Shown one piece after another: positions 23,952 to 41,065 of a DNA stretch of 64,000 nucleotides; position 1 is the stretch's first letter; each line of letters begins with the position of its first letter. Source of the stretch: Daejeonella lutea (GTDB lineage: Bacteria > Bacteroidota > Bacteroidia > Sphingobacteriales > Sphingobacteriaceae). The notes beneath the pieces were generated by a model that made no database searches, was not told where the DNA came from, and saw nothing but the letters and a program-made list of their open reading frames with translations. The position numbers and the translations under genes are program-made. Where the stretch lies: assembly GCF_900168015.1 (NCBI RefSeq), contig NZ_FUYR01000002.1:454932-518931 (forward strand), given 5' to 3'.

Positions 23952-24827
23952 ATGATAAAATCCATGACAGGATACGGTTTGGCTACTAAGGATTTTGCAA
24001 ATGCAAAATATACTGTAGAGATTAAATCATTGAACAGTAAGTTTCTTGAGCTTTCTTTAAAAATTCCAAAATCTTTTTCAGATAAAGAGTTCGTTTTAAG
24101 AAATGACTGCAGTAAACAGATTGAACGCGGGAAAGTTAATATCAGTATTAATGTAGAGAACGCTGAAACTACATTAAAGACTTCCACTATAAATCAGCCA
24201 CTGCTGAACCACTACTACCAACAGCTGAAAACTGCGGCCAACTCACTTGGCGATACAGGGAGCAATCTGCTGCAAATGGCCCTCAATTTTCCGGAAGTAA
24301 TTCAATTTACATCTGAAGAAGGCATAGAGGATGAATGGAAAACTGTTTACGAAACCTTTGGCGAGGCGCTGAAAAATTTTCAAAACTTCCGTCAGGATGA
24401 GGGTAATGTATTAAAACAAGACCTGATCCTGCGGATAAACAATATTGATGAAGGGATGCGTTTAGTTTCAGAACAGGAGCCCAATCGAATTCCTGCGATC
24501 CGCGAACGGCTGAATCATTTCCTGGAAGAAGCTGTTGGAAAAGAAAATGTTGACAAGAATCGCTTCGAACAGGAACTTATCTACTATATAGACAAACTGG
24601 ATATTACTGAGGAAAAGATTCGCCTCAAAAGTCATTTGGATTATTTCCTTGAAGCATTGAAAGATAAAGACGCAAACGGAAAAAAACTCGGTTTTATTTC
24701 GCAGGAAATTGGTCGTGAGATTAACACGATGGGCTCAAAAGCAAATGATGCCAAAATGCAGCAGATTGTGGTTGGAATGAAGGAAGAGCTGGAGAAGATA
24801 AAAGAGCAATTATTGAACGTACTATAA
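23952..24827 (+). CDS. YicC family endoribonuclease
   Basis: 291 residues, matching YicC length. The N terminus MIKSMTGYGLATKDF and the C-terminal block ending KLGFISQEIGREINTMGSKAND (split here as KLGFISQEIGRE and INTMGSKAND) are family hallmarks. YicC proteins are endoribonucleases linked to small-RNA decay and growth-phase survival. It is followed by gmk, a neighbour kept in many phyla. Confidence 0.93.
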   Translation: MIKSMTGYGLATKDFANAKYTVEIKSLNSKFLELSLKIPKSFSDKEFVLRNDCSKQIERGKVNISINVENAETTLKTSTINQPLLNHYYQQLKTAANSLGDTGSNLLQMALNFPEVIQFTSEEGIEDEWKTVYETFGEALKNFQNFRQDEGNVLKQDLILRINNIDEGMRLVSEQEPNRIPAIRERLNHFLEEAVGKENVDKNRFEQELIYYIDKLDITEEKIRLKSHLDYFLEALKDKDANGKKLGFISQEIGREINTMGSKANDAKMQQIVVGMKEELEKIKEQLLNVL

Positions 24828-24831
24828 AGTT

Positions 24832-24906
24832 GCAAGTAATAAGTTATAGGTTATAAGTTCCACTCGTAGCCTCAACTTAAAACTTGCAGCCTACAACTTA
24901 CAACTC
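24832..24906. repeat. Word-repeat inverted element (acttgcaact family)
   Basis: Reiterated words aagttgcaagtaataagttat and, inverted, aacttgcagcctacaactta form a long imperfect hairpin between yicC and gmk. A similar element lies at 40975-41065. Confidence 0.6.
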
Positions 24907-30346: not shown

Positions 30347-31681
30347 TTATGCGAGGAGAGCGTCAATGGCTTTTTCAACCCGTTCAAAGCTAAAGTTTTT
30401 AAGATTGGCTTTAAAGGATTTGTAGATTTGCTCGTTACATAAATTACCAATGCTTCCTTCGTGAGTATGATTAACCATAGAAGGAGCCTTAAACTCACCT
30501 TTCTCTATAGCGGCACCCACGTTTTTATAGGCTTCCCGGAAAGGAACACCATTCAAAACTTCGGCATTAACCGCTTCCACGCTGAAGAGGTAGGCATATT
30601 TTTCATCTTTTAGAATGTCTTCCTTTATGCGAATGGATTGCAGCATAAACCCAGTCATTTCAATGCACTCATTTAACGACAAAAATGCAGGAAACAAATT
30701 CTCTTTTAGCAATTGAAGATCTCTGTGGTAGCCGGACGGAAGATTGGCCGTCATCAAAGCAATCTCGTTAGATAGGGCCTGAATCTTATTACATCTCGCA
30801 CGGATCAGCTCAAATACATCCGGGTTTTTCTTGTGGGGCATAATGCTCGACCCCGTTGTAAGTTCATCGGGAAAGCTGATAAATGCAAAGTTCTGGTTGA
30901 TGAATAAACATGCATCCATCGCAAGTTTCGCTAAGGTTGCAGCAATTGAAGACATGGCTTGCGCCAGGATCCTTTCGGTTTTTCCTCTGCCCATCTGTGC
31001 GTAAACCACATTATAATTCAGCGAGTCGAACCCAAGTAATTCGGTGGTCATCATTCTGTTCAATGGAAAAGACGATCCATATCCTGCTGCCGATCCAAGG
31101 GGGTTTTTGTTACAAACTTTCCACGCTGCAAGCATGAGTTCCATGTCGTCGGCCAGGCTTTCCGCGTAAGCGCCAAACCATAAGCCAAATGATGAAGGCA
31201 TAGCAATCTGCAGGTGAGTATACCCGGGAAGCAATTTATCTTTGTGCTCTTCGCTTTGAACGATCAATTGTTCAAACAGAATTTCAGTATTTTTTACCAG
31301 CTTCGTAATCTCCGAACGGAAAAACAGCTTAAGATCAACTAATACTTGATCATTACGTGAACGGCCGCTGTGTATCTTTTTCCCGGCCTCGCCAATCCGC
31401 TGCGTCAACAGAAATTCCACTTGTGAATGCACATCCTCTACTGTTGGCTCAATTGAGAACTTGCCGTCCTGGATTTCCCGGTAAATCTTTTTAAGCTCTG
31501 CCTGAACCTGTACTAGATCCTCCTTCTCCATCAGGCCGATACTTTCCAGCATCTTAGTATGCGCCAGAGATCCTAACACATCAAATGGAGCGAGCATAAT
31601 ATCCATTTCACGATCATTGCCAACCGTAAATTTCTCAACTGACCTTTCTGTGCTTGTGTTCTTTTGCCAGAGCTTACTCAT
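30347..31681 (-). CDS. argH: Argininosuccinate lyase
   Basis: 444 residues. It splits argininosuccinate to arginine and fumarate, the last step of the pathway. The fumarase/lyase signature TGSSIMPHKKNPDVFELIRA and the GRSRNDQVLVDLKLFFR block are present. It is the last arginine gene of the operon; its first bases overlap the end of the GNAT gene upstream by 8. Confidence 0.96.
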   Translation of the reverse strand: MSKLWQKNTSTERSVEKFTVGNDREMDIMLAPFDVLGSLAHTKMLESIGLMEKEDLVQVQAELKKIYREIQDGKFSIEPTVEDVHSQVEFLLTQRIGEAGKKIHSGRSRNDQVLVDLKLFFRSEITKLVKNTEILFEQLIVQSEEHKDKLLPGYTHLQIAMPSSFGLWFGAYAESLADDMELMLAAWKVCNKNPLGSAAGYGSSFPLNRMMTTELLGFDSLNYNVVYAQMGRGKTERILAQAMSSIAATLAKLAMDACLFINQNFAFISFPDELTTGSSIMPHKKNPDVFELIRARCNKIQALSNEIALMTANLPSGYHRDLQLLKENLFPAFLSLNECIEMTGFMLQSIRIKEDILKDEKYAYLFSVEAVNAEVLNGVPFREAYKNVGAAIEKGEFKAPSMVNHTHEGSIGNLCNEQIYKSFKANLKNFSFERVEKAIDALLA

Positions 31682-32267
31682 ACATGCTAAAATTTGTAAA
31701 ATACTGTTCTTTGATGGTTTCCCATTCTGACCGCAAAATACTGTAATAAACTGTGTTCCGGATATAACCGTCGTGCAATTTGATGTGTTCTCTTAAAACG
31801 CCTTCACGAGTGGCACCAATACCTAATATGGCTTGCCGCGACCGGTGATTTCGTTCATCTGCTTTCAGTTCGATGCGATTCAAACCAAGTGTCTCAAATC
31901 CGTAGCTCAGTATAAGGAATTTCATATCGCGGTTAAGGCCGCTTCCCTGAAACTCGCTACCTATCCAGGTCCAACCGATTTGCCCGCGCTCATCCTTCCA
32001 TGAAATCTCAGAAAGTCTTGTACATCCGGCAATTTTCCCCGATTTTTTATCGATAACAACCCAGATTGCACAGATACCGCTGTTCCTATCGGCAATAGCT
32101 GTTGCAATATATTTCTTTAGTTCTCCGGGTTTTGAAAGATCAGATGTTCCATAAATCCACAGAGATTCTTCATCAGCGATCTCCTGAAGCTCTTTTTCAT
32201 CATCCTTGGTCAACGGCCGCAACAGGGTCCGTTCACTTTCTAAGCTTATGTTCAGATCTGGTATCAT
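31674..32267 (-). CDS. GNAT N-acetyltransferase (RimJ/RimL type)
   Basis: 197 residues. N-terminal LISLESERTLLRPLTKDDEK-like start (actual: DLNISLESERTLLRPLT), then GNAT motifs including WTWIGSEFQGSGLN and NRIELKADERNHRSRQAILG with the acetyl-CoA-binding loop. This type commonly acetylates protein N termini or small amines. It is locked into the arginine operon: its ATG overlaps the TAA of the upstream M20 gene (TAATG), and its end overlaps argH. A role in arginine synthesis is therefore possible but not shown. Confidence 0.85.
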   Translation of the reverse strand: MIPDLNISLESERTLLRPLTKDDEKELQEIADEESLWIYGTSDLSKPGELKKYIATAIADRNSGICAIWVVIDKKSGKIAGCTRLSEISWKDERGQIGWTWIGSEFQGSGLNRDMKFLILSYGFETLGLNRIELKADERNHRSRQAILGIGATREGVLREHIKLHDGYIRNTVYYSILRSEWETIKEQYFTNFSMYE

Positions 32268-33325
32268 TATATAATTTTTGATAGTAATTCGATATAAAGG
32301 CTAATACCTTCCTCTATTTCCTCTGTATAAATAAATTCATTTGCCATATGTGATCTGGCCGAGTCACCCGGGCCCATTTTTAGCGAAGGGATGTCGAGTA
32401 AAGCCTGATCACTGGTTGTTGGCGATCCGTATGTTTCACGTCCCAAAGCAATACCTGCTTTAACTATTGGATGGTCCTTACTGATGGATGAAGGCTTTAA
32501 CCTGGTCGATCTTGGATTCACGTCGCAGCTTACATTCTGGCGAATGATCTTTAATACCTCTTCGTTCCGGTAGGCATCCGTGATCCGTACATCAACCGTA
32601 AACTTGCAAGTTGCCGGCACTACGTTATGCTGAGATCCGGCTTCGATTATCGTCACGCTCATCTTAACGGGACCAAAAAGTTCTGATTTCTTGGCGAACT
32701 CGTAAGATCTGAACCACTCAATATCCTTTAATGCTTTATAAATCGCGTTATCTCCTTCGTCCCTGGCCGCGTGGCCTGCTTTACCATGCACAGTGCAATC
32801 AATAACCATGAGTCCTTTTTCTGCAATTGCCATATTCATTAGAGTTGGCTCTCCAACAATTGCAAATTCCAGCTCACCAAGTTCCGGTAAAATCGATTCG
32901 AGGCCGCTCTGTCCTGAAATTTCTTCTTCGGCGGTCAAAGCCAGACAAAGGTTATATTTCAGATTCGCACTGTCATAATAATGCAGAAATGCTGCAGTTA
33001 AAGAAACCAGGCATCCGCCCGCGTCGTTGCTTCCCAGGCCGTATAGAATACCATCCTCGATGTCTGCAGCAAATGGCTCCCGGGTATAACCTGAGTTTGG
33101 TTTTACCGTGTCATGATGAGAGTTAAGAAGTATAGTAGGCTTATTCGCGTCGAAAAACTTATTATAAGCCCAAATATTATTCAGCTTGCGATTAGTTTTC
33201 ACCTCCTTACTCACAAGGAACGCGTTGATTGCAGACGCAGTTTTATCCTCTTCCCTGCTAAATGAAGGAATCCGGATCAGCTCCTTCAGCAGTTCTATAC
33301 TTTCATTAACAAGAACTTCCGCCAT
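32267..33325 (-). CDS. M20 family deacylase (acyl-ornithine/citrulline type, ArgE-like)
   Basis: 352 residues of the M20 metallopeptidase family. Metal-binding motifs: LLNSHHDTVKPN, GLGSNDAGGCLVSLTAAF and the catalytic TAEEEISGQSGLE; a dimerisation domain lies about 165-275. By position in the operon it removes the acyl group from acetyl- or succinyl-citrulline or ornithine. Since the transcarbamylase here is of the acylated-ornithine type, acyl-citrulline is the expected substrate (inference). The stop overlaps the ATG of the GNAT gene by one base. Confidence 0.88.
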   Translation of the reverse strand: MAEVLVNESIELLKELIRIPSFSREEDKTASAINAFLVSKEVKTNRKLNNIWAYNKFFDANKPTILLNSHHDTVKPNSGYTREPFAADIEDGILYGLGSNDAGGCLVSLTAAFLHYYDSANLKYNLCLALTAEEEISGQSGLESILPELGELEFAIVGEPTLMNMAIAEKGLMVIDCTVHGKAGHAARDEGDNAIYKALKDIEWFRSYEFAKKSELFGPVKMSVTIIEAGSQHNVVPATCKFTVDVRITDAYRNEEVLKIIRQNVSCDVNPRSTRLKPSSISKDHPIVKAGIALGRETYGSPTTSDQALLDIPSLKMGPGDSARSHMANEFIYTEEIEEGISLYIELLSKII

Positions 33326-33328
33326 TTT

Positions 33329-34144
33329 TCAACCTTTTGTATATAAATCGCCTGCCTTTTGGGCTGATAATTTAATTCCTTTGATAAGTGATGAGCTGAA
33401 TCCCTGATGTTCCATCTCATTCAACCCTGCAATGGTACAGCCTTTCGGCGATGTTACCTTGTCGATCTCATGTTCGGGATGGCTATTCTGAAGAAGTAAA
33501 AGATCTGCTGCTCCCTTCGCAGTTTGAACTGCCATCTTAAGCGCTTCGTCTGCATGAAATCCTATTTCTATCCCACCCTGTGATGCTGCTCGGATAGCTC
33601 TTAAGAAGAAGGCAACACCGCATGCACAAAGGGCTGTTGCCGAAGTCATAAGATCCTCGTTGATCTTTATTACTGCACCGACAGTTTCGAACATCTTCGT
33701 TACTTCCGAAATATTCTCGGCACTCGCATTATCAGAAGCAATGCAGGTCATAGATTGTCCGATCGCAATTGCCGTATTGGGCATTACCCGGATGACCTGA
33801 ACATCCTCGCCCAGTTTCGCTTTAATATTTGCACAACTAACTCCAGAGATTACAGAAATAACTACATGCCGTTTTGAATCGATGGCCCCATTGATCTGCC
33901 CCAATAAAGTGTCAAGTTGCTGTGGTAATACTGCAAGGATGATTAGCTCTGAATTAGCAACTACTTCCGAATTCTGATTGCTGATGTTAAAACCCTGACT
34001 GGCCTCCGCGGATAAATTGTCAACGGTCCGGCGGGTAAGTGTAATATCCTTAGGCTTGCAATATTCTGCTTTAACTAAGCCCCTGGCTAATGACATTCCA
34101 ATATTTCCACTACCCAGTATTGCTATTTTTTGTGCTTTAGCCAT
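33329..34144 (-). CDS. proC: Pyrroline-5-carboxylate reductase
   Basis: 271 residues. NADPH-dependent last step of proline synthesis. The dinucleotide-binding IAILGSGNIGMSLARGLV opens it, VMPNTAIAIGQSMT is conserved, and the C-terminal signature around DKVTSPKGCTIAGLNEMEHQ is clear. Its ATG overlaps the TAA of argB by one base. Its presence links proline and arginine supply from glutamate. Confidence 0.94.
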   Translation of the reverse strand: MAKAQKIAILGSGNIGMSLARGLVKAEYCKPKDITLTRRTVDNLSAEASQGFNISNQNSEVVANSELIILAVLPQQLDTLLGQINGAIDSKRHVVISVISGVSCANIKAKLGEDVQVIRVMPNTAIAIGQSMTCIASDNASAENISEVTKMFETVGAVIKINEDLMTSATALCACGVAFFLRAIRAASQGGIEIGFHADEALKMAVQTAKGAADLLLLQNSHPEHEIDKVTSPKGCTIAGLNEMEHQGFSSSLIKGIKLSAQKAGDLYTKG

Positions 34145-34956
34145 TATTCCTTTGATTTTAATCGCGTTCCAAATGTTTTTTGTTTTAGTTCAGGCAATGC
34201 ATCAGCTCTTCCGATGCAGACCTCGTTGAGGCCTTTGCTTATCGCTTCAAAGGCATTATCCAGTTTCGGGATCATGCCCGAATGGATCACGCCGTCTTCT
34301 TTTAGTTCTTTATATTTAACCGGATCGATCGATTTGATAATCGACGTTTCATCATCTACATCTCTTAAAACACCATTCTTCTCAAAACAGTAAACAAGTG
34401 AGGTTTGGTAATAACCGGACATTGAAACTGCAATTACCGAAGCAATCGTATCAGCATTCGTGTTTAAAAGCTGGCCCTGCCCATCGTGAGTGATTGCAGA
34501 AAACACAGGGACAAAACCTGCATTAAGCAATTTATGAATTGCCTCAGAATCAACTGAGCTGTCATCCAGATCGCCTACGAAACCATAGTCAATCTGTCGG
34601 CCGTCTGCTATTGTTTTTAATGGCCTTTTCACTGCCTGTATAATATTGCCATCGGCTCCGGCTAGGCCAATTGCGTTGCAGTTATTACTTTGAAGACTGG
34701 CAACGATGTTTTTATTGATCAGGCCTGCATAGACCATTGCAACCACCTTCAGGCTTTCCGCATCCGTTACCCTTCTGCCCTCAATGAGCTCCGATTCTAT
34801 GCCCAGGTCTTTCGCAAGCTTGGTAGCTATCTTGCCTCCTCCGTGAACCAAAATCTTATATCCTTCGAGCTGGGAGAAATCTTTTAAAAAGCTTTCAAGC
34901 TCCGCCGGATCATCAATAATGTTTCCACCAATTTTTATAACATAAAGGGAATTCAT
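34144..34956 (-). CDS. argB: Acyl-glutamate kinase (acetyl- or succinylglutamate)
   Basis: 270 residues of the amino-acid-kinase fold. Motifs: VIKIGGNIIDD, LVHGGGKIATKLAKDLGIES and a late KLDNAFEAISKGLNEV segment. It phosphorylates N-acylglutamate. In Bacteroides fragilis the homologue prefers the succinyl substrate; which one is used here is open. Overlaps argF' by four bases (ATGA) and proC by one, so the genes are tightly coupled. Confidence 0.92.
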   Translation of the reverse strand: MNSLYVIKIGGNIIDDPAELESFLKDFSQLEGYKILVHGGGKIATKLAKDLGIESELIEGRRVTDAESLKVVAMVYAGLINKNIVASLQSNNCNAIGLAGADGNIIQAVKRPLKTIADGRQIDYGFVGDLDDSSVDSEAIHKLLNAGFVPVFSAITHDGQGQLLNTNADTIASVIAVSMSGYYQTSLVYCFEKNGVLRDVDDETSIIKSIDPVKYKELKEDGVIHSGMIPKLDNAFEAISKGLNEVCIGRADALPELKQKTFGTRLKSKE

Positions 34957-35918
34957 TTCTTAAGATCCTCTAACATTTCTTTCAGGACTGCCTGAGCTGC
35001 CCAGGTCCGGTTACTTGCTTCTTTGATCACCAGAGAGTTGGGTCCATCCAGAATTTCTGCTGAAAGCTCATAGTCTCTTCTTACTGGCAGGCAATGCATC
35101 ACCTTCGCATTATTCGTTCCTTCAAGCTTTTTGTTTGTCATCATCCACGACTCAGCGCCGGGCAATGTTTTGCCATAGTCCTTGTAAGATGACCAGTTCT
35201 TTACATACACGAAGTCAGCTTCTTTCAAAGCCTCAGTCTGGTCTGTTACTATTTTAGCCCCCGGCGTAAATTTCTCTGCAAGTTCGAAGCCTTCAGGATG
35301 GGTAATTACGAAGTCAATCATGCCTTCAGCCTGGGCTTTACACATCCATTCTGCAAAAGAATTCGGCACTGCCTGAGGCAATGCTTTTACATGCGGAGCC
35401 CACGTTAAAACTACCTTGGGTTTTGCAATTTGCTTATGTTCTTCAATGGTGATTAGGTCGGCAAAACTCTGCAAAGGATGCAGGGTGGCACTTTCCAAAC
35501 TTACCACGGGAACGCCGCTAAATTTTACGAACTTGTTGAAAAGGCTCTCGCTGTAATCTTCTTCTCGATCCTGGAGTTTGGGGAAAGAACGGAAGCCCAG
35601 GATATCACAATACTCTCCCATAACTGCCGCGGCTTCCCGAATGTGTTCAACCGTGGTCCCGTTCATCACAACGCCATCTTCTGTTTCCAAAGCCCAGCCT
35701 TCTTTGTCGAGGTTCATCACCATGACATTCATGCCCAGGTTCAATGCTGCTTTTTGAGTGCTCAATCGTGTGCGTAAGCTTGGGTTAAGGAAAACCAAAC
35801 CAATAGTTTTATCCTTGCCCAAAGATTTATGAGCAAAAGGATCGGCTTTAAGAATTAATGCCTCTTCAATAAATTTTTTCAGATCAGTAACATCGTTAAC
35901 TGAAGAAAATAGTTTCAT
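34953..35918 (-). CDS. argF': N-acyl-ornithine transcarbamylase (ArgF')
   Basis: 321 residues. The carbamoyl-phosphate loop FLNPSLRTRLSTQKAALNLG and MHCLPVRRDYELSAEILD are those of the acetyl/succinylornithine transcarbamylases of Bacteroidota and Xanthomonas, not of true ornithine transcarbamylase. It makes N-acylcitrulline from carbamoyl phosphate. Residue 90, reported to decide acetyl against succinyl preference (Pro in the Bacteroides fragilis succinyl enzyme, Glu in the Xanthomonas acetyl enzyme), is Val here (NGTTVEHIREA). The preferred acyl group is therefore uncertain. Confidence 0.9.
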   Translation of the reverse strand: MKLFSSVNDVTDLKKFIEEALILKADPFAHKSLGKDKTIGLVFLNPSLRTRLSTQKAALNLGMNVMVMNLDKEGWALETEDGVVMNGTTVEHIREAAAVMGEYCDILGFRSFPKLQDREEDYSESLFNKFVKFSGVPVVSLESATLHPLQSFADLITIEEHKQIAKPKVVLTWAPHVKALPQAVPNSFAEWMCKAQAEGMIDFVITHPEGFELAEKFTPGAKIVTDQTEALKEADFVYVKNWSSYKDYGKTLPGAESWMMTNKKLEGTNNAKVMHCLPVRRDYELSAEILDGPNSLVIKEASNRTWAAQAVLKEMLEDLKK

Positions 35919-35991
35919 AATGCGCAGCTAAAAAGAAAACAAAATTGGTCTCCTTTTCCCTGAAAGATCAGGAAACCTTTATAGTATAGCC

Positions 35992-37146
35992 TTAAGAAAG
36001 GCTTTTTTCAAACTTACCCTGAAGCTCCAAACTGAATGCCTCTAAAAACTGATCGGCATGAGTCTTCGTCAAATTCAATGCGGGCAGCAACCGGATAACA
36101 TTAGGCTTTGCCTCTCCGGTAAAGATACGATGTTTGAAAAGTAAATTTTTCTTCACGTGGGCTAGTTCTTCCGGCAGCTCTATGCCGATCATTAAGCCCC
36201 TGCCCCTGACTTCTTTTATCTGTTGGAATTTCTTCAACTCGGTAATCAGGTAATTGCCAACTTCTTCAACATTCTGCATCAGGTTATCTTTTTCCATCAC
36301 CTCCAGAACGGCAAGTGCCGCTGCACAGGCGAGATGGTTTCCTCCAAACGTAGTTCCAAGCATTCCATGCCATGGCTTGAACTTGGGAGCAATTGAGATT
36401 CCTCCTATCGGGAAACCATTACCCATGCCCTTCGCCATGGTATAAATATCCGCATCCACACCGGCATAATCATGAGAGTAAAATTTACCACTCCGGCCAT
36501 ACCCACATTGAACGCTGTCTGCAATAAACACCGCATCATACTGATCACAGAGTGATCTGATCTTTTGAAGGAAACTTTCTGTTGCAACTTTGATTCCGCC
36601 AACGCCTTGAATCCCTTCAATGATCACTGATGAGATCTCATTTCCATGATCCTTGAAGGCCTGTTCTAAAGTTGCTTCATCATTGTGCGGAAGGAAAATA
36701 ACATTATCGGTTTCGTTAACTGGTGCAACGATTTTGGGATTATCTGTTGCAGCAACTGCTAGAGAAGTCCTTCCGTGAAACGCTCCTTTGAAAGCAATGA
36801 TCTTCTTCCTGTTGTTGTAGAAAGACGCAAGCTTCAATGCATTCTCATTAGCTTCCGCACCTGAACTGCATAAGAATAATTGGTAATCGACTTTTCCTGA
36901 AAGCTTACCTAGTTTTTCGGCAAGCTGTACTTGCAATGGGATTTTAACTGAGTTCGAATAGAATCCAACTTTGCTCAGTTGATCTGTAAGTCTTTTTACG
37001 TAATGTGGATGGGTGTGCCCAATGGAAATTACCGCATGGCCTCCATACAGGTCTAAATATTGGTTCCCCTTTTCATCCCAAACATTGGATCCAAGCGCTT
37101 TAGTAATTTCTATATCGTTAAGGGGATAAACGTCAAATAATTTCAT
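35992..37146 (-). CDS. argD: Acyl-ornithine aminotransferase
   Basis: 384 residues, class III aminotransferase. Motifs: VDYQLFLCSSGAEANENALK, HGRTSLAVAATDN, IADSVQCGYGRSGKFYSHDY and the PLP lysine in YTMAKGMGNGFPIGG. It converts N-acylglutamate semialdehyde to N-acylornithine. The four-helix-bundle gene with its bracketing repeats separates it from argC upstream. Confidence 0.94.
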   Translation of the reverse strand: MKLFDVYPLNDIEITKALGSNVWDEKGNQYLDLYGGHAVISIGHTHPHYVKRLTDQLSKVGFYSNSVKIPLQVQLAEKLGKLSGKVDYQLFLCSSGAEANENALKLASFYNNRKKIIAFKGAFHGRTSLAVAATDNPKIVAPVNETDNVIFLPHNDEATLEQAFKDHGNEISSVIIEGIQGVGGIKVATESFLQKIRSLCDQYDAVFIADSVQCGYGRSGKFYSHDYAGVDADIYTMAKGMGNGFPIGGISIAPKFKPWHGMLGTTFGGNHLACAAALAVLEVMEKDNLMQNVEEVGNYLITELKKFQQIKEVRGRGLMIGIELPEELAHVKKNLLFKHRIFTGEAKPNVIRLLPALNLTKTHADQFLEAFSLELQGKFEKSLS

Positions 37147-37151
37147 TTTGA

Positions 37152-37176
37152 GTTTTACGTTATACGTTCTACGTTT
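37152..37176. repeat. Inverted repeat, argD side of the four-helix-bundle gene
   Basis: 25 bases, GTTTTACGTTATACGTTC then TACGTTT. Its reverse complement matches positions 37663-37687 at 23 of 25 bases. It lies six bases upstream of the argD start. Confidence 0.8.
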
Positions 37177-37210
37177 TAAGTCTGGATGTTTAAGTTTTTT
37201 GCCCAGTTAG

Positions 37211-37570
37211 TTAAGTTGTAGAACGAACTTTGTGAATTAATGAGATAAGCATTGCTTTGATCTCGTTTATATTATCATTTAGCGTCAAATGTTCTTTATT
37301 CGGCAGATAACCGAGATCTCTTGATAGCAACAAAAAATACTCTGTTTCATTTGCCGATCCTAACGCGATGTTCAAAAAATTACCCAAATCTTTTTGCGAA
37401 TTCTTTCCACATCCTTCGGCTATATTAGCCGGGATCGCCGAAACACATCGTCGCAGTTGATTCGTCAAACTGTAAAGTTCATCTTTTGGAAATCTCGTAG
37501 TCATCTTGTAAACTTTCAGGGTAAGCTGGTGTGCTTTATCCCAAACTTTCAATTCTTTGTAATTTTGCAT
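37211..37570 (-). CDS. Four-helix-bundle protein (23S rRNA IVP/Avd-like family)
   Basis: 119 residues, intact. Family motifs: NYKELKVWDKAHQLTLKVYK (helix 1), FPKDELYSLTNQLRRCVSAI, PANIAEGCGKNSQKDLGNFL and LGSANETEYFLLLSRDLGYL (helix 3). The family was first seen inside 23S rRNA intervening sequences; Avd of diversity-generating retroelements has the same fold. Its cellular role is unknown. It sits inside the arginine operon between argC and argD, framed by inverted repeats at 37152-37176 and 37663-37687, and looks like an insertion. A decayed relative is at 1963-2244. Confidence 0.9.
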   Translation of the reverse strand: MQNYKELKVWDKAHQLTLKVYKMTTRFPKDELYSLTNQLRRCVSAIPANIAEGCGKNSQKDLGNFLNIALGSANETEYFLLLSRDLGYLPNKEHLTLNDNINEIKAMLISLIHKVRSTT

Positions 37571-37662
37571 AACTCTAAGCTTAGTCTCCCTAAACCTAGA
37601 TTCTATATAGATTATATTAAGTCGAACTTTATCCTACGGTAGGTACGCCTGTGTTTCCGCCC

Positions 37663-37687
37663 AAACGTACGACGTATAACGTAAAAC
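37663..37687. repeat. Inverted repeat, argC side of the four-helix-bundle gene
   Basis: 25 bases, AAACGTACGACGTATAAC then GTAAAAC, the partner of 37152-37176 in opposite orientation. It starts 93 bases upstream of the four-helix-bundle ATG and ends seven bases before the end of argC. Confidence 0.8.
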
Positions 37688-37693
37688 GTACAA

Positions 37694-38683
37694 CTAAAAT
37701 GCAGCAGCCTTCAGTTTTAGGCCCACCGTTTCGTCAATCCCAAACATGAGGTTCATATTCTGTACAGCGTGGCCGCTAGCTCCCTTGAGCAAGTTGTCGA
37801 TCATTGAAATGATAAACAATTTCGAACCATGTTTTTCAAGATGAACTAGAGCCTTATTGGTGTTTACAACCTGCTTAAGGTCGATGTTTTTCTTACTTAC
37901 ATGCGTGAAGGGATGACCAGCATAAAAATCTTCGTAAATCTTAGTCACTTCCTCCAAAGTAAGGTCACTTTCTAAATAGATTGCTGCTAGAATTCCCCTG
38001 GTAAAATCACCTCTTTGCGGAATGAAATTTATCGTTTGATTAAAGCTATGTTGAAGCGCCGTTAAGGTCTCTCCAATTTCATTCAAATGCTGATGTTCAA
38101 AAGCCTTGTATATTGAAAGGTTATTGTTTCTCCAGGTAAAGTGTGACGTCACCGCGAGGCTTTGGCCGGCACCGGTCGAGCCTGTAGTCGCGTTGATATG
38201 CACCTCAGAATTTAGTAAACCTTTCGCTGCCAGCGGTAGCAAGCCAATTTCAATGGTTGTTGCAAAACAACCAGGGTTTGCGATATTACTGGCAGTTTTA
38301 ATCTTTTCCCTGTTTAATTCAGGCAGCCCGTAAATAAACTTTCTGCTGGCGTATTGTGCATTTTTATTTAACCTGAAATCCTGCGAAAGATCGATGATCT
38401 TTATTCCCGGATTTATAGGGTTGGCATCAAGAAATTTCTTCGCATCGCCATGACCTACACAAAGGAAAAGCACATCAATTTCCGGCGAAAGGGTATCGGT
38501 AAATTCCAGGTCGGTATCGCCAAAAAGGTCAGTATGGATATCGAAGATAGGATTCCCAGCATTGCTGTTGCTATGCACCGACAGAATCTCCACCTCAGGA
38601 TGATTTACCAAAATCCTGAGCAGTTCTCCGCCTGTGTATCCAGCACCGCCCGCTATTCCAACTTTTATCTTAGCGCTCGCCAT
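37694..38683 (-). CDS. argC: N-acyl-gamma-glutamyl-phosphate reductase
   Basis: 329 residues. NADPH-dependent reduction of acylglutamyl phosphate to the semialdehyde. The dinucleotide-binding VGIAGGAGYTGGELLRILV opens it, and the active-site Cys is in ASNIANPGCFATTIEIGLLP. Its stop follows a GC-poor tail close to an inverted repeat. The start ATG directly abuts the TAA of argG with no gap. Confidence 0.96.
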   Translation of the reverse strand: MASAKIKVGIAGGAGYTGGELLRILVNHPEVEILSVHSNSNAGNPIFDIHTDLFGDTDLEFTDTLSPEIDVLFLCVGHGDAKKFLDANPINPGIKIIDLSQDFRLNKNAQYASRKFIYGLPELNREKIKTASNIANPGCFATTIEIGLLPLAAKGLLNSEVHINATTGSTGAGQSLAVTSHFTWRNNNLSIYKAFEHQHLNEIGETLTALQHSFNQTINFIPQRGDFTRGILAAIYLESDLTLEEVTKIYEDFYAGHPFTHVSKKNIDLKQVVNTNKALVHLEKHGSKLFIISMIDNLLKGASGHAVQNMNLMFGIDETVGLKLKAAAF

Positions 38684-39874
38684 TTACTTTTTCTCATTAA
38701 CTCTGTGATAGATCATCGTCTGGTTACCGAAGATCTTCGAAAACCCTTTTACATCCTCTCCCGACCATGAGTTATTCATCTCACCATAGCTGCCAAACTT
38801 ATTCGACATTAGATCGTGTTCTGATTCAATTCCAACAACCTGAAAACGGTAAGGAAGAAGCTTAACAAATACTTTCCCGGAAACAGTTTCCTGAGTGTCT
38901 GCAAGGAAAGCTTCCATGTTCCGCATAACCGGATCATGGAATTGCCCTTCATGCAGCCAGTTGCCGTAGAAGGTTGACAACTGGTCCTTCCAGCTCAATT
39001 GCCATTTTGTAAGCGTATGCTTTTCCAGTGTATGATGCGCTTTGATGATGATGATTGGAGCGGCGGCCTCAAATCCCACACGGCCTTTAATACCTATGAT
39101 CGTATCACCAACATGAATATCTCTTCCAATTCCATAAGGCTGTGCAATTTCCTGTAATTTCTGAATGGCTTTCACCGGACTTAGTTTCTCACCGTCAATA
39201 CCAACCAGTTCACCTTTTTCAAAAGTGAGCTCGATATCTCGTTCCTTAGTTTCAGAAACCTGGGTGGGCCAGGCTTCTTCAGGAAGTGTTTGATTAGAAG
39301 TTAACGTTTCCTTGCCGCCTACGGATGTTCCCCATATGCCTTTGTTGATGGAATACCTTGCTTTTTCAGCGGTATACTCAACACCGTGCTTATTCAGGTA
39401 TTCAATCTCCGCTTCACGGCTTAATTTCAAATCTCTGATCGGAGTGATGATCTCAACCCCCGGAATCATGATATTGAAGATCATGTCAAAGCGAACCTGA
39501 TCATTTCCAGCACCTGTACTTCCGTGTGCAACGTAATCAGCACCAATTTTCTTTACATAATTTGCAATAGCTGTAGCCTGGCTTACCCGTTCAGCACTTA
39601 CCGACAAAGGGTAAGTTGAATTTTTGAGGACGTTACCGAAGATCAGGTACTTGATGCAGCTTTCGTAGTAATTCTCTGTTTCATCGACTACCGAATGAGA
39701 AGTAACGCCAAGTGCGTAGGCGCGTTTTTCTATTTCCTTCAATTCCTGATCAGAGAAACCTCCTGTATTCACGATCACGGAATGTACTTCCAGGTCACGG
39801 TCCTTTGTCAGATAAATACAACAAAAGGAAGTATCCAAACCTCCGCTGAAAGCTAAAACTACCTTCTTCTTCAT
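38684..39874 (-). CDS. argG: Argininosuccinate synthase
   Basis: 396 residues. Joins citrulline and aspartate with ATP. The PP-loop VVLAFSGGLDTSFCCIYL is at the N terminus; HGSTGAGNDQVRFD and KGIWGTSVGGKETL are conserved. The short form (about 400 residues) is usual. It starts three bases after the GNAT gene stops. Confidence 0.96.
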   Translation of the reverse strand: MKKKVVLAFSGGLDTSFCCIYLTKDRDLEVHSVIVNTGGFSDQELKEIEKRAYALGVTSHSVVDETENYYESCIKYLIFGNVLKNSTYPLSVSAERVSQATAIANYVKKIGADYVAHGSTGAGNDQVRFDMIFNIMIPGVEIITPIRDLKLSREAEIEYLNKHGVEYTAEKARYSINKGIWGTSVGGKETLTSNQTLPEEAWPTQVSETKERDIELTFEKGELVGIDGEKLSPVKAIQKLQEIAQPYGIGRDIHVGDTIIGIKGRVGFEAAAPIIIIKAHHTLEKHTLTKWQLSWKDQLSTFYGNWLHEGQFHDPVMRNMEAFLADTQETVSGKVFVKLLPYRFQVVGIESEHDLMSNKFGSYGEMNNSWSGEDVKGFSKIFGNQTMIYHRVNEKK

Positions 39875-39877
39875 TAT

Positions 39878-40603
39878 TTAATTATGTAAAAGTTTAACAA
39901 TTGTGATACTCATCGCTGCAATCATTTTCAAGGAATTGCGTAATGTCTCTTCTATTCTCTCCAGAAGTGTTTGCTTGCGCGAGACCTTGCTCAGGCGCTC
40001 CTCGTCAAGCTTCTTTTTAAGCTCTTCTGCCTCCTTCATTTTTTGCTCAATCTCTTTTGCTTTTTCTTCAGGATCCCAAAGCATAGCTGTGCACATGCAA
40101 TTCTTACGCTCCTTCATCATCAGGATATCGTAGTTAACACAACTTTGGCATCCTTTCCAAAAGTCCTCATCCTGCGTAAGCATTGAGTAGGTTACAGGTT
40201 CATAGCCAAGGTCGGAATTGATCTTCATTACAGGCAGGCCGGTAGTAAGCCCGAAGATTTTCGCATCTGGATATTTTTGCCGTGAAAGGTCAAAGACAGC
40301 CTTTTTAATCATTTTGGCGAGGCCCTTATTTCTGAACTGTGGATTCACAATCAGCCCGGAATTCGCCACAAAGGTACCGTGGCTCCAGGTTTCAATATAA
40401 CAAAACCCAGCCCAGGTGCCGTCTTCATGCAAAGCAATAACAGCCTTCCCCTCGAGCATTTTCTGGATTATATATTCCGGAGTTCTTCTTGCAATACCCG
40501 TACCCCGCGCCTTGGCAGATTCTGCCATCTCATCGCATATTTGCTCTGCGTAATTAGTATGTTGTTCTGTTGCCGGGATGACAACAAATTCGTTTTCTTT
40601 CAT
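39878..40603 (-). CDS. GNAT acyltransferase, likely N-acylglutamate synthase
   Basis: 241 residues. An N-terminal GNAT domain (about 1-150) has GTFVANSGLIVNPQFRNKGL, an acetyl-CoA-binding R/QxxGxG/A-like loop. A cysteine-containing segment (CQSCVNYDILMMKERKNCMC) follows, then a charged coiled coil (EEKAKEIEQKMKEAEELKKK). It is first in the arginine operon, in the place where the pathway's first enzyme is expected, since no argA or argJ is present in the window. Bacteroides genetics has assigned the homologous gene a role in acylglutamate synthesis, as I recall. The assignment here rests on context. The acyl donor is not known. Confidence 0.75.
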   Translation of the reverse strand: MKENEFVVIPATEQHTNYAEQICDEMAESAKARGTGIARRTPEYIIQKMLEGKAVIALHEDGTWAGFCYIETWSHGTFVANSGLIVNPQFRNKGLAKMIKKAVFDLSRQKYPDAKIFGLTTGLPVMKINSDLGYEPVTYSMLTQDEDFWKGCQSCVNYDILMMKERKNCMCTAMLWDPEEKAKEIEQKMKEAEELKKKLDEERLSKVSRKQTLLERIEETLRNSLKMIAAMSITIVKLLHN

Positions 40604-40637
40604 GTATTTTGAAGAAAAAAATCCGGCTTTGAGGCGG

Positions 40638-40662
40638 AAAAAAGACTACGTTTTTAGTCTTT
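40638..40662 (-). terminator. Attenuator-like terminator before the arginine operon
   Basis: On the minus strand AAAGACT/AGTCTTT (seven pairs, eight-base loop) is followed by three more Ts, giving a run of six. It lies 35 bases before the first start codon of the operon, so it would cut off transcription unless prevented. Confidence 0.7.
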
Positions 40663-40692
40663 CGTTTTGTGAATAAAATCAATGATTTTGAA

Positions 40693-40856
40693 AACCGGAA
40701 GAATTTACCGGTTAATATGAGGTTGATGCCAAGATCAAGTCCGCGGCATAAAGGGTCGTCGGAACCGCAATACTAACTTTTCAGTGCTGAAATTACTACG
40801 TACACAACCTGCCTGGTAAGCCGGGTGACTCACAGATCCTGTGTGTGTTTGGTAGT
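40693..40856 (-). promoter_or_regulatory. Structured leader of the arginine operon
   Basis: Several helices can be drawn on the minus-strand RNA. An outer stem ACTAC/GTAGT and ACACA/TGTGT (852-856 with 795-799 and 844-848 with 802-806 of the 40 kb block) encloses two hairpins: CACAG/CTGTG and CCCGG/CCAGG (one mismatch). Next come GCGG/CCGC (765-768 with 741-744), TTGAT/ATCAA (734-738 with 723-727) and AACCGG/CCGGTT (693-712). A terminator hairpin follows. This resembles a riboswitch or attenuator. It matches no class I can recognise (no TPP, SAM, cobalamin or glycine core). Confidence 0.5.
40735..40770 (-). CDS. Possible arginine-rich leader peptide
   Basis: Eleven codons plus TGA from a TTG: MRFRRPFMPRT, with four Arg codons (CGG, CGA, CGA, CGG). 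It overlaps the GCGG/CCGC stem of the leader. If translated, stalling at Arg codons could change the fold ahead of the terminator at 40638-40662. A TTG start without a Shine-Dalgarno site makes this uncertain, and the composition could be chance. Confidence 0.25.
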   Translation of the reverse strand: MRFRRPFMPRT

Positions 40857-40902
40857 TTAAACTATTCATTTTTAATAGTATGGGTGTTTCTAATTATTAA
40901 TA

Positions 40903-40934
40903 CAAATAACAGAGAAAATCCTGAATAATGCAAG
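40903..40934 (-). promoter_or_regulatory. Promoter of the arginine operon
   Basis: Minus-strand CTTG (40931-40934), 20 bases, then GTTATTTG (40903-40910), close to TTTG/TAnnTTTG. Transcription would start near 40896, giving a leader of about 290 nt before the first gene. Confidence 0.45.
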
Positions 40935-40974
40935 AAACGCGGGTTAATATTACAATTTGGTAACAAGGAATAAG

Positions 40975-41065
40975 TTGTAAGTATTAAGTTGTAGGTTATA
41001 AGTCTCTGCACACTCATAAGAGATTTCTTTTCCGGGCAAGGACTTATAACCGACACTTATAACTC
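40975..41065. repeat. Word-repeat inverted element after the lipoprotein gene
   Basis: Reiterated ataagttgtaag and gttataagtc words pair with gacttataac and acttataact to form a long hairpin just after the stop of the 41068-41547 gene. It probably acts as that gene's terminator. Same family as 24832-24906. Confidence 0.6.

Follow-up and report, generated by a model that had tools for sequence, protein, structure and literature searches.

The leader of the arginine operon in the stretch of Daejeonella lutea DNA analyzed here (64,000 nucleotides, referred to as the window) probably exerts ribosome-mediated, arginine-responsive leader-peptide control of the operon in place of the repressor ArgR. 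Sequence analysis demonstrates the upstream open reading frame (ORF), the invariance of its codons, hairpins linked to its stop codon and an exchange with ArgR. Three features of an attenuator were found at the locus: a short conserved ORF that follows the promoter and precedes the first gene, enriched and conserved codons for the operon's end product, and RNA structures downstream. The sensor side of leader-peptide control can be regarded as well supported by these sequence comparisons. A first-pass annotation had headlined an unrecognised, structured, riboswitch-like leader. This description was abandoned: the strongest conservation lies in coding sequence, and the core of the leader, as judged by that conservation, is a conserved upstream ORF rather than a riboswitch-like RNA. 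The alternative offered at the time, attenuation through a ribosome that stalls in an Arg-rich frame, is strongly supported because the ORF is conserved, a CGA-CGA codon pair is invariant, ArgR is absent and the arrangement recurs class-wide.

The operon lies on the minus strand. Its first gene (39878..40603) encodes a GNAT acetyltransferase (Pfam PF00583) that received no NCBIfam name in an NCBIfam profile search and that, judged by its position, is probably the N-acetyl- or N-succinyl-glutamate (N-acylglutamate) synthase. The rest of the operon (30347..39874, minus strand), assigned from ORFs with NCBIfam and Pfam matches, follows in the order argG, argC, argD, N-acylornithine carbamoyltransferase, argB, proC, an argE-like gene, a second GNAT gene and argH. 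The nearest named relatives of the locus belong to Daejeonella and other Sphingobacteriaceae. The first GNAT gene heads the arginine operon class-wide, where it comes first after the leader or after argR. It was missing in 3 of 20 Daejeonella genomes (G042, G134, G149), which would represent either arginine auxotrophs or assembly gaps.

Ahead of this gene, a leader of about 290 nt and a promoter match had been proposed, and both were borne out. On the minus strand the leader spans about 40897 to 40604, and its RNA as a whole folds somewhat better than shuffled sequences (z -2.2). The predicted promoter is of the Bacteroidota type (40903..40933, minus strand), with the -33 element TTG at 40933-40931 and the -7 element TTTG at 40906-40903; sequence comparison found both elements at the same place in relatives, with equal spacing to the ATG of the leader ORF. 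Transcription is predicted to start near 40897, about 30 nt 5' of this ORF. Immediately 5' of the promoter lies a palindromic repeat (40973-41055) with inverted arms at 40990-41009 and 41036-41055, which resembles elements of the REP or MITE type. A part of it of about 31 bases has some ten more partial matches in the genome, one of them at about 24827-24858 of the window.

The leader ORF (40735..40869, minus strand) starts with ATG, comprises 44 codons and encodes the peptide MNSLNYQTHTGSVSHPAYQAGCVRSNFSTEKLVLRFRRPFMPRT, followed by a stop codon and ending in ...LRFRRPFMPRT. The 11-codon Arg-rich frame described in the first-pass annotation does exist; it is not an independent frame, being the 3' end of this longer ATG-started ORF. 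Wherever a Sphingobacteriaceae locus included sufficient flanking sequence, an upstream ORF was found ahead of this GNAT/arg gene, and 91 distinct leaders were obtained in this way. All of them are started by ATG and 39-44 codons long, and their stop codons lie 81-149 nt 5' of the GNAT gene. Lack of conservation had been named as the outcome that would speak against a functional leader. We found the leader to be conserved, but as a leader peptide. The N-terminal halves of the peptides are divergent and the C-terminal ends similar across clades: ..RFRRPFMPRT in Daejeonella, ..SRRRLFIPRV in Mucilaginibacter, ..RFRRPILPRA in Sphingobacterium and Parapedobacter, and ..NRQNYTPRI in Pedobacter. Within the family the end is thus conserved up to the stop in the pattern R..[FY].PR.-stop, Pedobacter included. 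Variation in the ORF is greatest at third codon positions, clearly so in Mucilaginibacter and Pedobacter and slightly in Daejeonella.

Conservation at the codon level is stricter at one site. The adjacent codons CGA-CGA (40756..40761, minus strand), which occupy positions -8 and -7 from the leader stop, are identical in 68 of 68 non-Pedobacter leaders, with a shift to -9 and -8 in Mucilaginibacter. Other Arg codons of the same leaders change freely: the one at -2 is CGG, AGG, AGA or CGA, and the third Arg of Mucilaginibacter (-7) is AGG, CGA, CGG or AGA. Pedobacter leaders carry a single invariant CGG at -8 (23/23) in place of the pair. Overall, CGA accounts for 39% of the Arg codons in leaders (145/374) compared with 6% in adjacent genes (49/758). 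In the genome of the window, the motif has a single occurrence when no mismatch is allowed. The tRNA-Arg anticodons of this genome are ACG, CCG, TCT and CCT. No tRNA-Arg with a TCG anticodon was found among 30 of 37 tRNA loci read directly and two more; the five loci not read measure 80-87 bases, the sizes of Leu or Ser tRNAs. Because no TCG anticodon was found, CGA would be decoded by tRNA-Arg(ACG) alone. CGA would then be read by inosine wobble, a slow mode of decoding. Arg-Arg pairs containing CGA strongly relieve attenuation in the his leader of Salmonella (PMC4046918). The CGA-CGA pair would be a natural and testable case of slowly decoded triplets selected as control codons.

How do these leaders relate to ArgR, the protein regulator? 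A profile search found ArgR (PF01316) in none of 151 Sphingobacteriaceae genomes, and in the genome of the window it was not found even at E=10. Among 396 genomes of the class Bacteroidia, 21 had a match, 19 of them above the cut-off. In all 14 class genomes that have both a clear argR match and the GNAT gene, argR lies directly 5' of the latter. At this very place, 42 of 76 ArgR-less genomes outside the Sphingobacteriaceae carry a short Arg-rich ORF; the remaining 34 have no Arg-rich leader under the criteria used. Among the 14 argR genomes a single one scored for an Arg-rich leader, which is an out-of-frame ORF inside argR itself (42/76 versus 1/14, Fisher p=0.0009). Leaders with at least three Arg among the last 12 residues were present at 57% of 83 loci, compared with 9.6% of dinucleotide shuffles. 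Relatives of the leader ORF thus occur across much of the class. As argR is adjacent to the GNAT gene in 14 of 14 cases and Arg-rich ORFs occupy that place in genomes devoid of ArgR, the leader replaces the repressor at one and the same place. A leader peptide at the site of a repressor gene represents a clear exchange of a protein regulator for one made of RNA and ribosome at a single locus, and it offers a possible answer to the question of how ArgR-less Bacteroidota control arginine synthesis. It also shows that leader-peptide ORFs in Bacteroidota are being missed by annotation.

Downstream of the control codons the leader is structured. In relatives, the peaks of local folding energy recur at constant positions when the sequences are anchored on the leader stop, and none lies in the body of the ORF; the upstream 100 nt are free of any structure signal yet hold an open frame of constant length. 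A bracketed two-hairpin domain that had been claimed for the 5' part lies inside the ORF, folds at shuffle level (z -1.15) and leaves no structure signal in relatives, and the claim was dropped. The competing stems proposed further downstream fared differently from one another. ATGCC/GGCAT corresponds to hairpin A (AUGCC/GGCAU, 40726..40749, minus strand, -6.4 kcal/mol), which holds the leader stop in its loop; its stem arms (40749-40745 and 40730-40726) are conserved in about 15 of 16 Daejeonella sequences, and in relatives the structure peak likewise spans the stop. GCGG/CCGC is confined to the window, its relatives showing GCGT instead. Hairpin B (AACCGG/CCGGUU, 40693..40713, minus strand, -6.8 kcal/mol, z -2.2) has counterparts in every clade, which differ in sequence and sit at the same distance of about 15-50 nt past the stop.

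We analyzed the pairing of both hairpins by exchanging arms among the 91 leaders. The exchange weakened hairpin A (t=-4.4) and hairpin B (t=-6.0), values that pool related sequences and that clade composition may inflate. Within clades, hairpin A responded clearly in the Sphingobacterium/Parapedobacter group and less so in Pedobacter, whereas hairpin B responded clearly in the former group and in Mucilaginibacter. An alternative in which the leader end pairs with hairpin B, at the expense of both A and B, found weak within-clade support. Covariation within Daejeonella is small, and RNAalifold on clade alignments shows too little of it to decide. In Sphingobacterium and Parapedobacter, the loop of hairpin B (GGUCC or GGCUC) is complementary to the last part of the leader ORF (GGGCU or GAGCU) in L012, L019, L026, L063 and their relatives; this might be a kissing loop, in which the two sides change in a matching way. 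Leaders of Pedobacter, Daejeonella and Mucilaginibacter (L002-L081) further carry, 3' of hairpin B and ahead of the start codon, an AU-rich stretch that is conserved in sequence (such as AATCAGA.TATT or CCAATTAACAAGAATA) and has no obvious structure. At Flavobacteria-type loci (L180, L183, L184, L194, L196), a recurrent hairpin with the loop AGGTGAGTCC or a near variant sits between the RRP-stop (or similar) end of the leader and the arg gene.

The candidate terminators are confined to fewer clades. The first-pass annotation had pointed out a terminator 35 bases before the start codon, and a hairpin followed by U6 is indeed found there (hairpin C, 40662-40638, minus strand, -6.3 kcal/mol, z -4.2), ending 35 nt 5' of the GNAT start codon. 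It is a modest candidate for an intrinsic terminator and has no equivalent in Pedobacter or in most Mucilaginibacter. The corresponding third structure peak, near +60-95 from the stop, is strong in Daejeonella only. Just 5' of the start codon follows hairpin D (UCCG/CGGA and then U7, 40615..40638, minus strand), which is weak on its own (-3.3 kcal/mol) and is kept in Daejeonella and an Arcticibacter-like clade. Terminator-like hairpins with a U tract were thus seen in Daejeonella, with the UCCG/CGGA analogue in the Arcticibacter-like group; none was found in 23 Pedobacter leaders, and few Mucilaginibacter have one. A conserved terminator as the common output was rejected outside Daejeonella and its near relatives. 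No terminator/anti-terminator pair conserved across clades was identified, and the swap tests supported no competitor pairing in the clade of the window. When the genome was searched by pattern for further copies of the terminator module, no match was returned, a weak result in that the window's own copy also went unreported.

Taken together, we propose the following mechanism. The 44-codon leader ORF would be translated, and when charged tRNA-Arg is short, the ribosome would slow at CGA-CGA, 7-8 codons 5' of the stop. When arginine is plentiful, the ribosome would reach the leader stop and, by the geometry of the sequence, cover hairpin A, which overlaps it. Since hairpin A overlaps the stop, the position of the ribosome would determine the folding of A, B and the RNA between them and the first gene. 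The folding of A and B would in turn decide expression of the operon, which would be on at starvation. In Daejeonella the likely output would be termination at hairpin C, perhaps at D too. No intrinsic terminator was seen in other clades, so the operon may there be controlled through translation initiation, Rho or RNA decay.

We considered an arrest peptide as a rival, in which the ribosome is arrested at the stop codon or close to it by the nascent leader in combination with free arginine or an intermediate of the pathway, as for TnaC and SpeFL, so that the signal is the metabolite and not tRNA charging. The peptide end that the family conserves up to the stop, even in Pedobacter with one Arg at the control position, is what this reading would predict, as is the near-constant leader length of 39-44 codons. 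Outside the family, an Arg-aromatic-Arg-stop spacing occurs in 17 of 42 leaders versus 7.5 expected by residue shuffling (p=0.0002), a motif that was picked after inspection of the data and in related sequences. However, an arrest peptide offers no reason for the strict retention of CGA, over the other Arg codons, at two positions in 68 of 68 leaders, and many leaders of the class have only their richness in Arg in common (for example TRRRP-stop, RPRRGC-stop). We hold this reading to be rather unlikely. Quite unlikely in our view is its most far-reaching form, namely Bacteroidia-wide arginine-sensing arrest peptides of about 44 residues that end in R-x2-[FY]-x2-R-x-stop and evolved by replacing argR in place, with the ribosome held at the stop by arginine itself, CGA-CGA serving as tuning and no intrinsic terminator involved.

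The constancy of CGACGA could also be that of an RNA or DNA site, be it a pairing partner, a pause or a protein site, rather than of codons. The preceding base is C in 30 of 31 non-Mucilaginibacter leaders whatever the residue, and CGACC can pair with GGUCG just 5' of the start codon in most members of the Parapedobacter/Sphingobacterium clade. This C is not kept in Mucilaginibacter, however, and the hexamer stays in frame throughout, its distance to the stop changing by precisely one codon. The long-range pairing of control codons and start region, attractive in the Parapedobacter/Sphingobacterium clade, failed the swap test over all 91 leaders (t=+0.9) and was discarded. Such a site is improbable. 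We regard a riboswitch for arginine or an intermediate, with the RNA as a ligand-binding aptamer and the ORF as incidental, as very improbable. It would fit the slightly better folding of the leader and the conserved placement of hairpins A and B, but not the lack of structure signal in the upstream 100 nt with their constant-length frame. Moreover, the hairpin sequences, loops included, are swapped wholesale between genera, unlike an aptamer core. That no riboswitch core is recognisable had been stated before and was confirmed by an Rfam search without a matching family; at both thresholds and with 20 relatives, this search returned nothing at gathering scores and otherwise chance-level matches only, and Rfam cis-regulatory RNAs were rejected as candidates. 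Finally, a single short Arg-rich frame is not rare, occurring in 9.6% of shuffled regions, but an Arg-rich ORF with hairpins that lack function can hardly account for conservation over 91 leaders and class-wide enrichment.

Leader-peptide control as proposed here resembles the trp, his and ilv attenuators of Proteobacteria in that hairpins follow a short ORF with many codons for the amino acid the operon makes, and no regulator protein is needed. The present case differs in concerning an arginine operon in Bacteroidota, in its long leader peptide with one invariant slow codon pair and in having no terminator/anti-terminator pair conserved across clades. Bacteroidales-type genomes with an ArgR-controlled operon have the same GNAT operon head and the same regulatory task, but argR occupies the position held here by the leader ORF. 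The Bacteroid-trp RNA motif (RF01692) is a candidate cis-regulatory RNA of Bacteroidetes whose name suggests a place before trp genes; the Rfam search did not match it here. For the same phylum and the same general mechanism, a transcriptome study of Flavobacterium psychrophilum reports, in its main text, strong clues for leader-peptide attenuation ahead of amino acid operons (PMC9723704); that main text names no arginine leader, CGA codons or ArgR swap. Searches of open-access literature found no description of an arginine leader peptide ahead of an arg biosynthesis operon in Bacteroidetes.

Sensing of arginine by leader ORFs has been described elsewhere. In the gammaproteobacterial speF orf34 (SpeFL), consecutive Arg codons sense arginine via a hairpin 3' of the stop (PMC6386406). 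The two consecutive Arg codons and the hairpin right after the leader stop are shared with our leaders; the controlled gene is one for ornithine decarboxylase and not for arginine synthesis, the peptide is unrelated, and the speF Arg codons may be rare or frequent (PMC6386406), whereas CGA is invariant here. Judged by their sequences, our leaders do not belong to the SpeFL/ORF34 family (PF10940), as they are without the HIRRT..HIM core given in PMC6386406. In Staphylococcus aureus, rare Arg codons in the small upstream ORF rbfL report arginine limitation, with the difference that the stalled ribosome covers the ribosome site of rbf and so represses it, and that the target is a biofilm regulator (PMC13009471). 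The leaders speF orf34 and rbfL are the nearest tested parallels, in which arginine is sensed through Arg codons and other genes are controlled.
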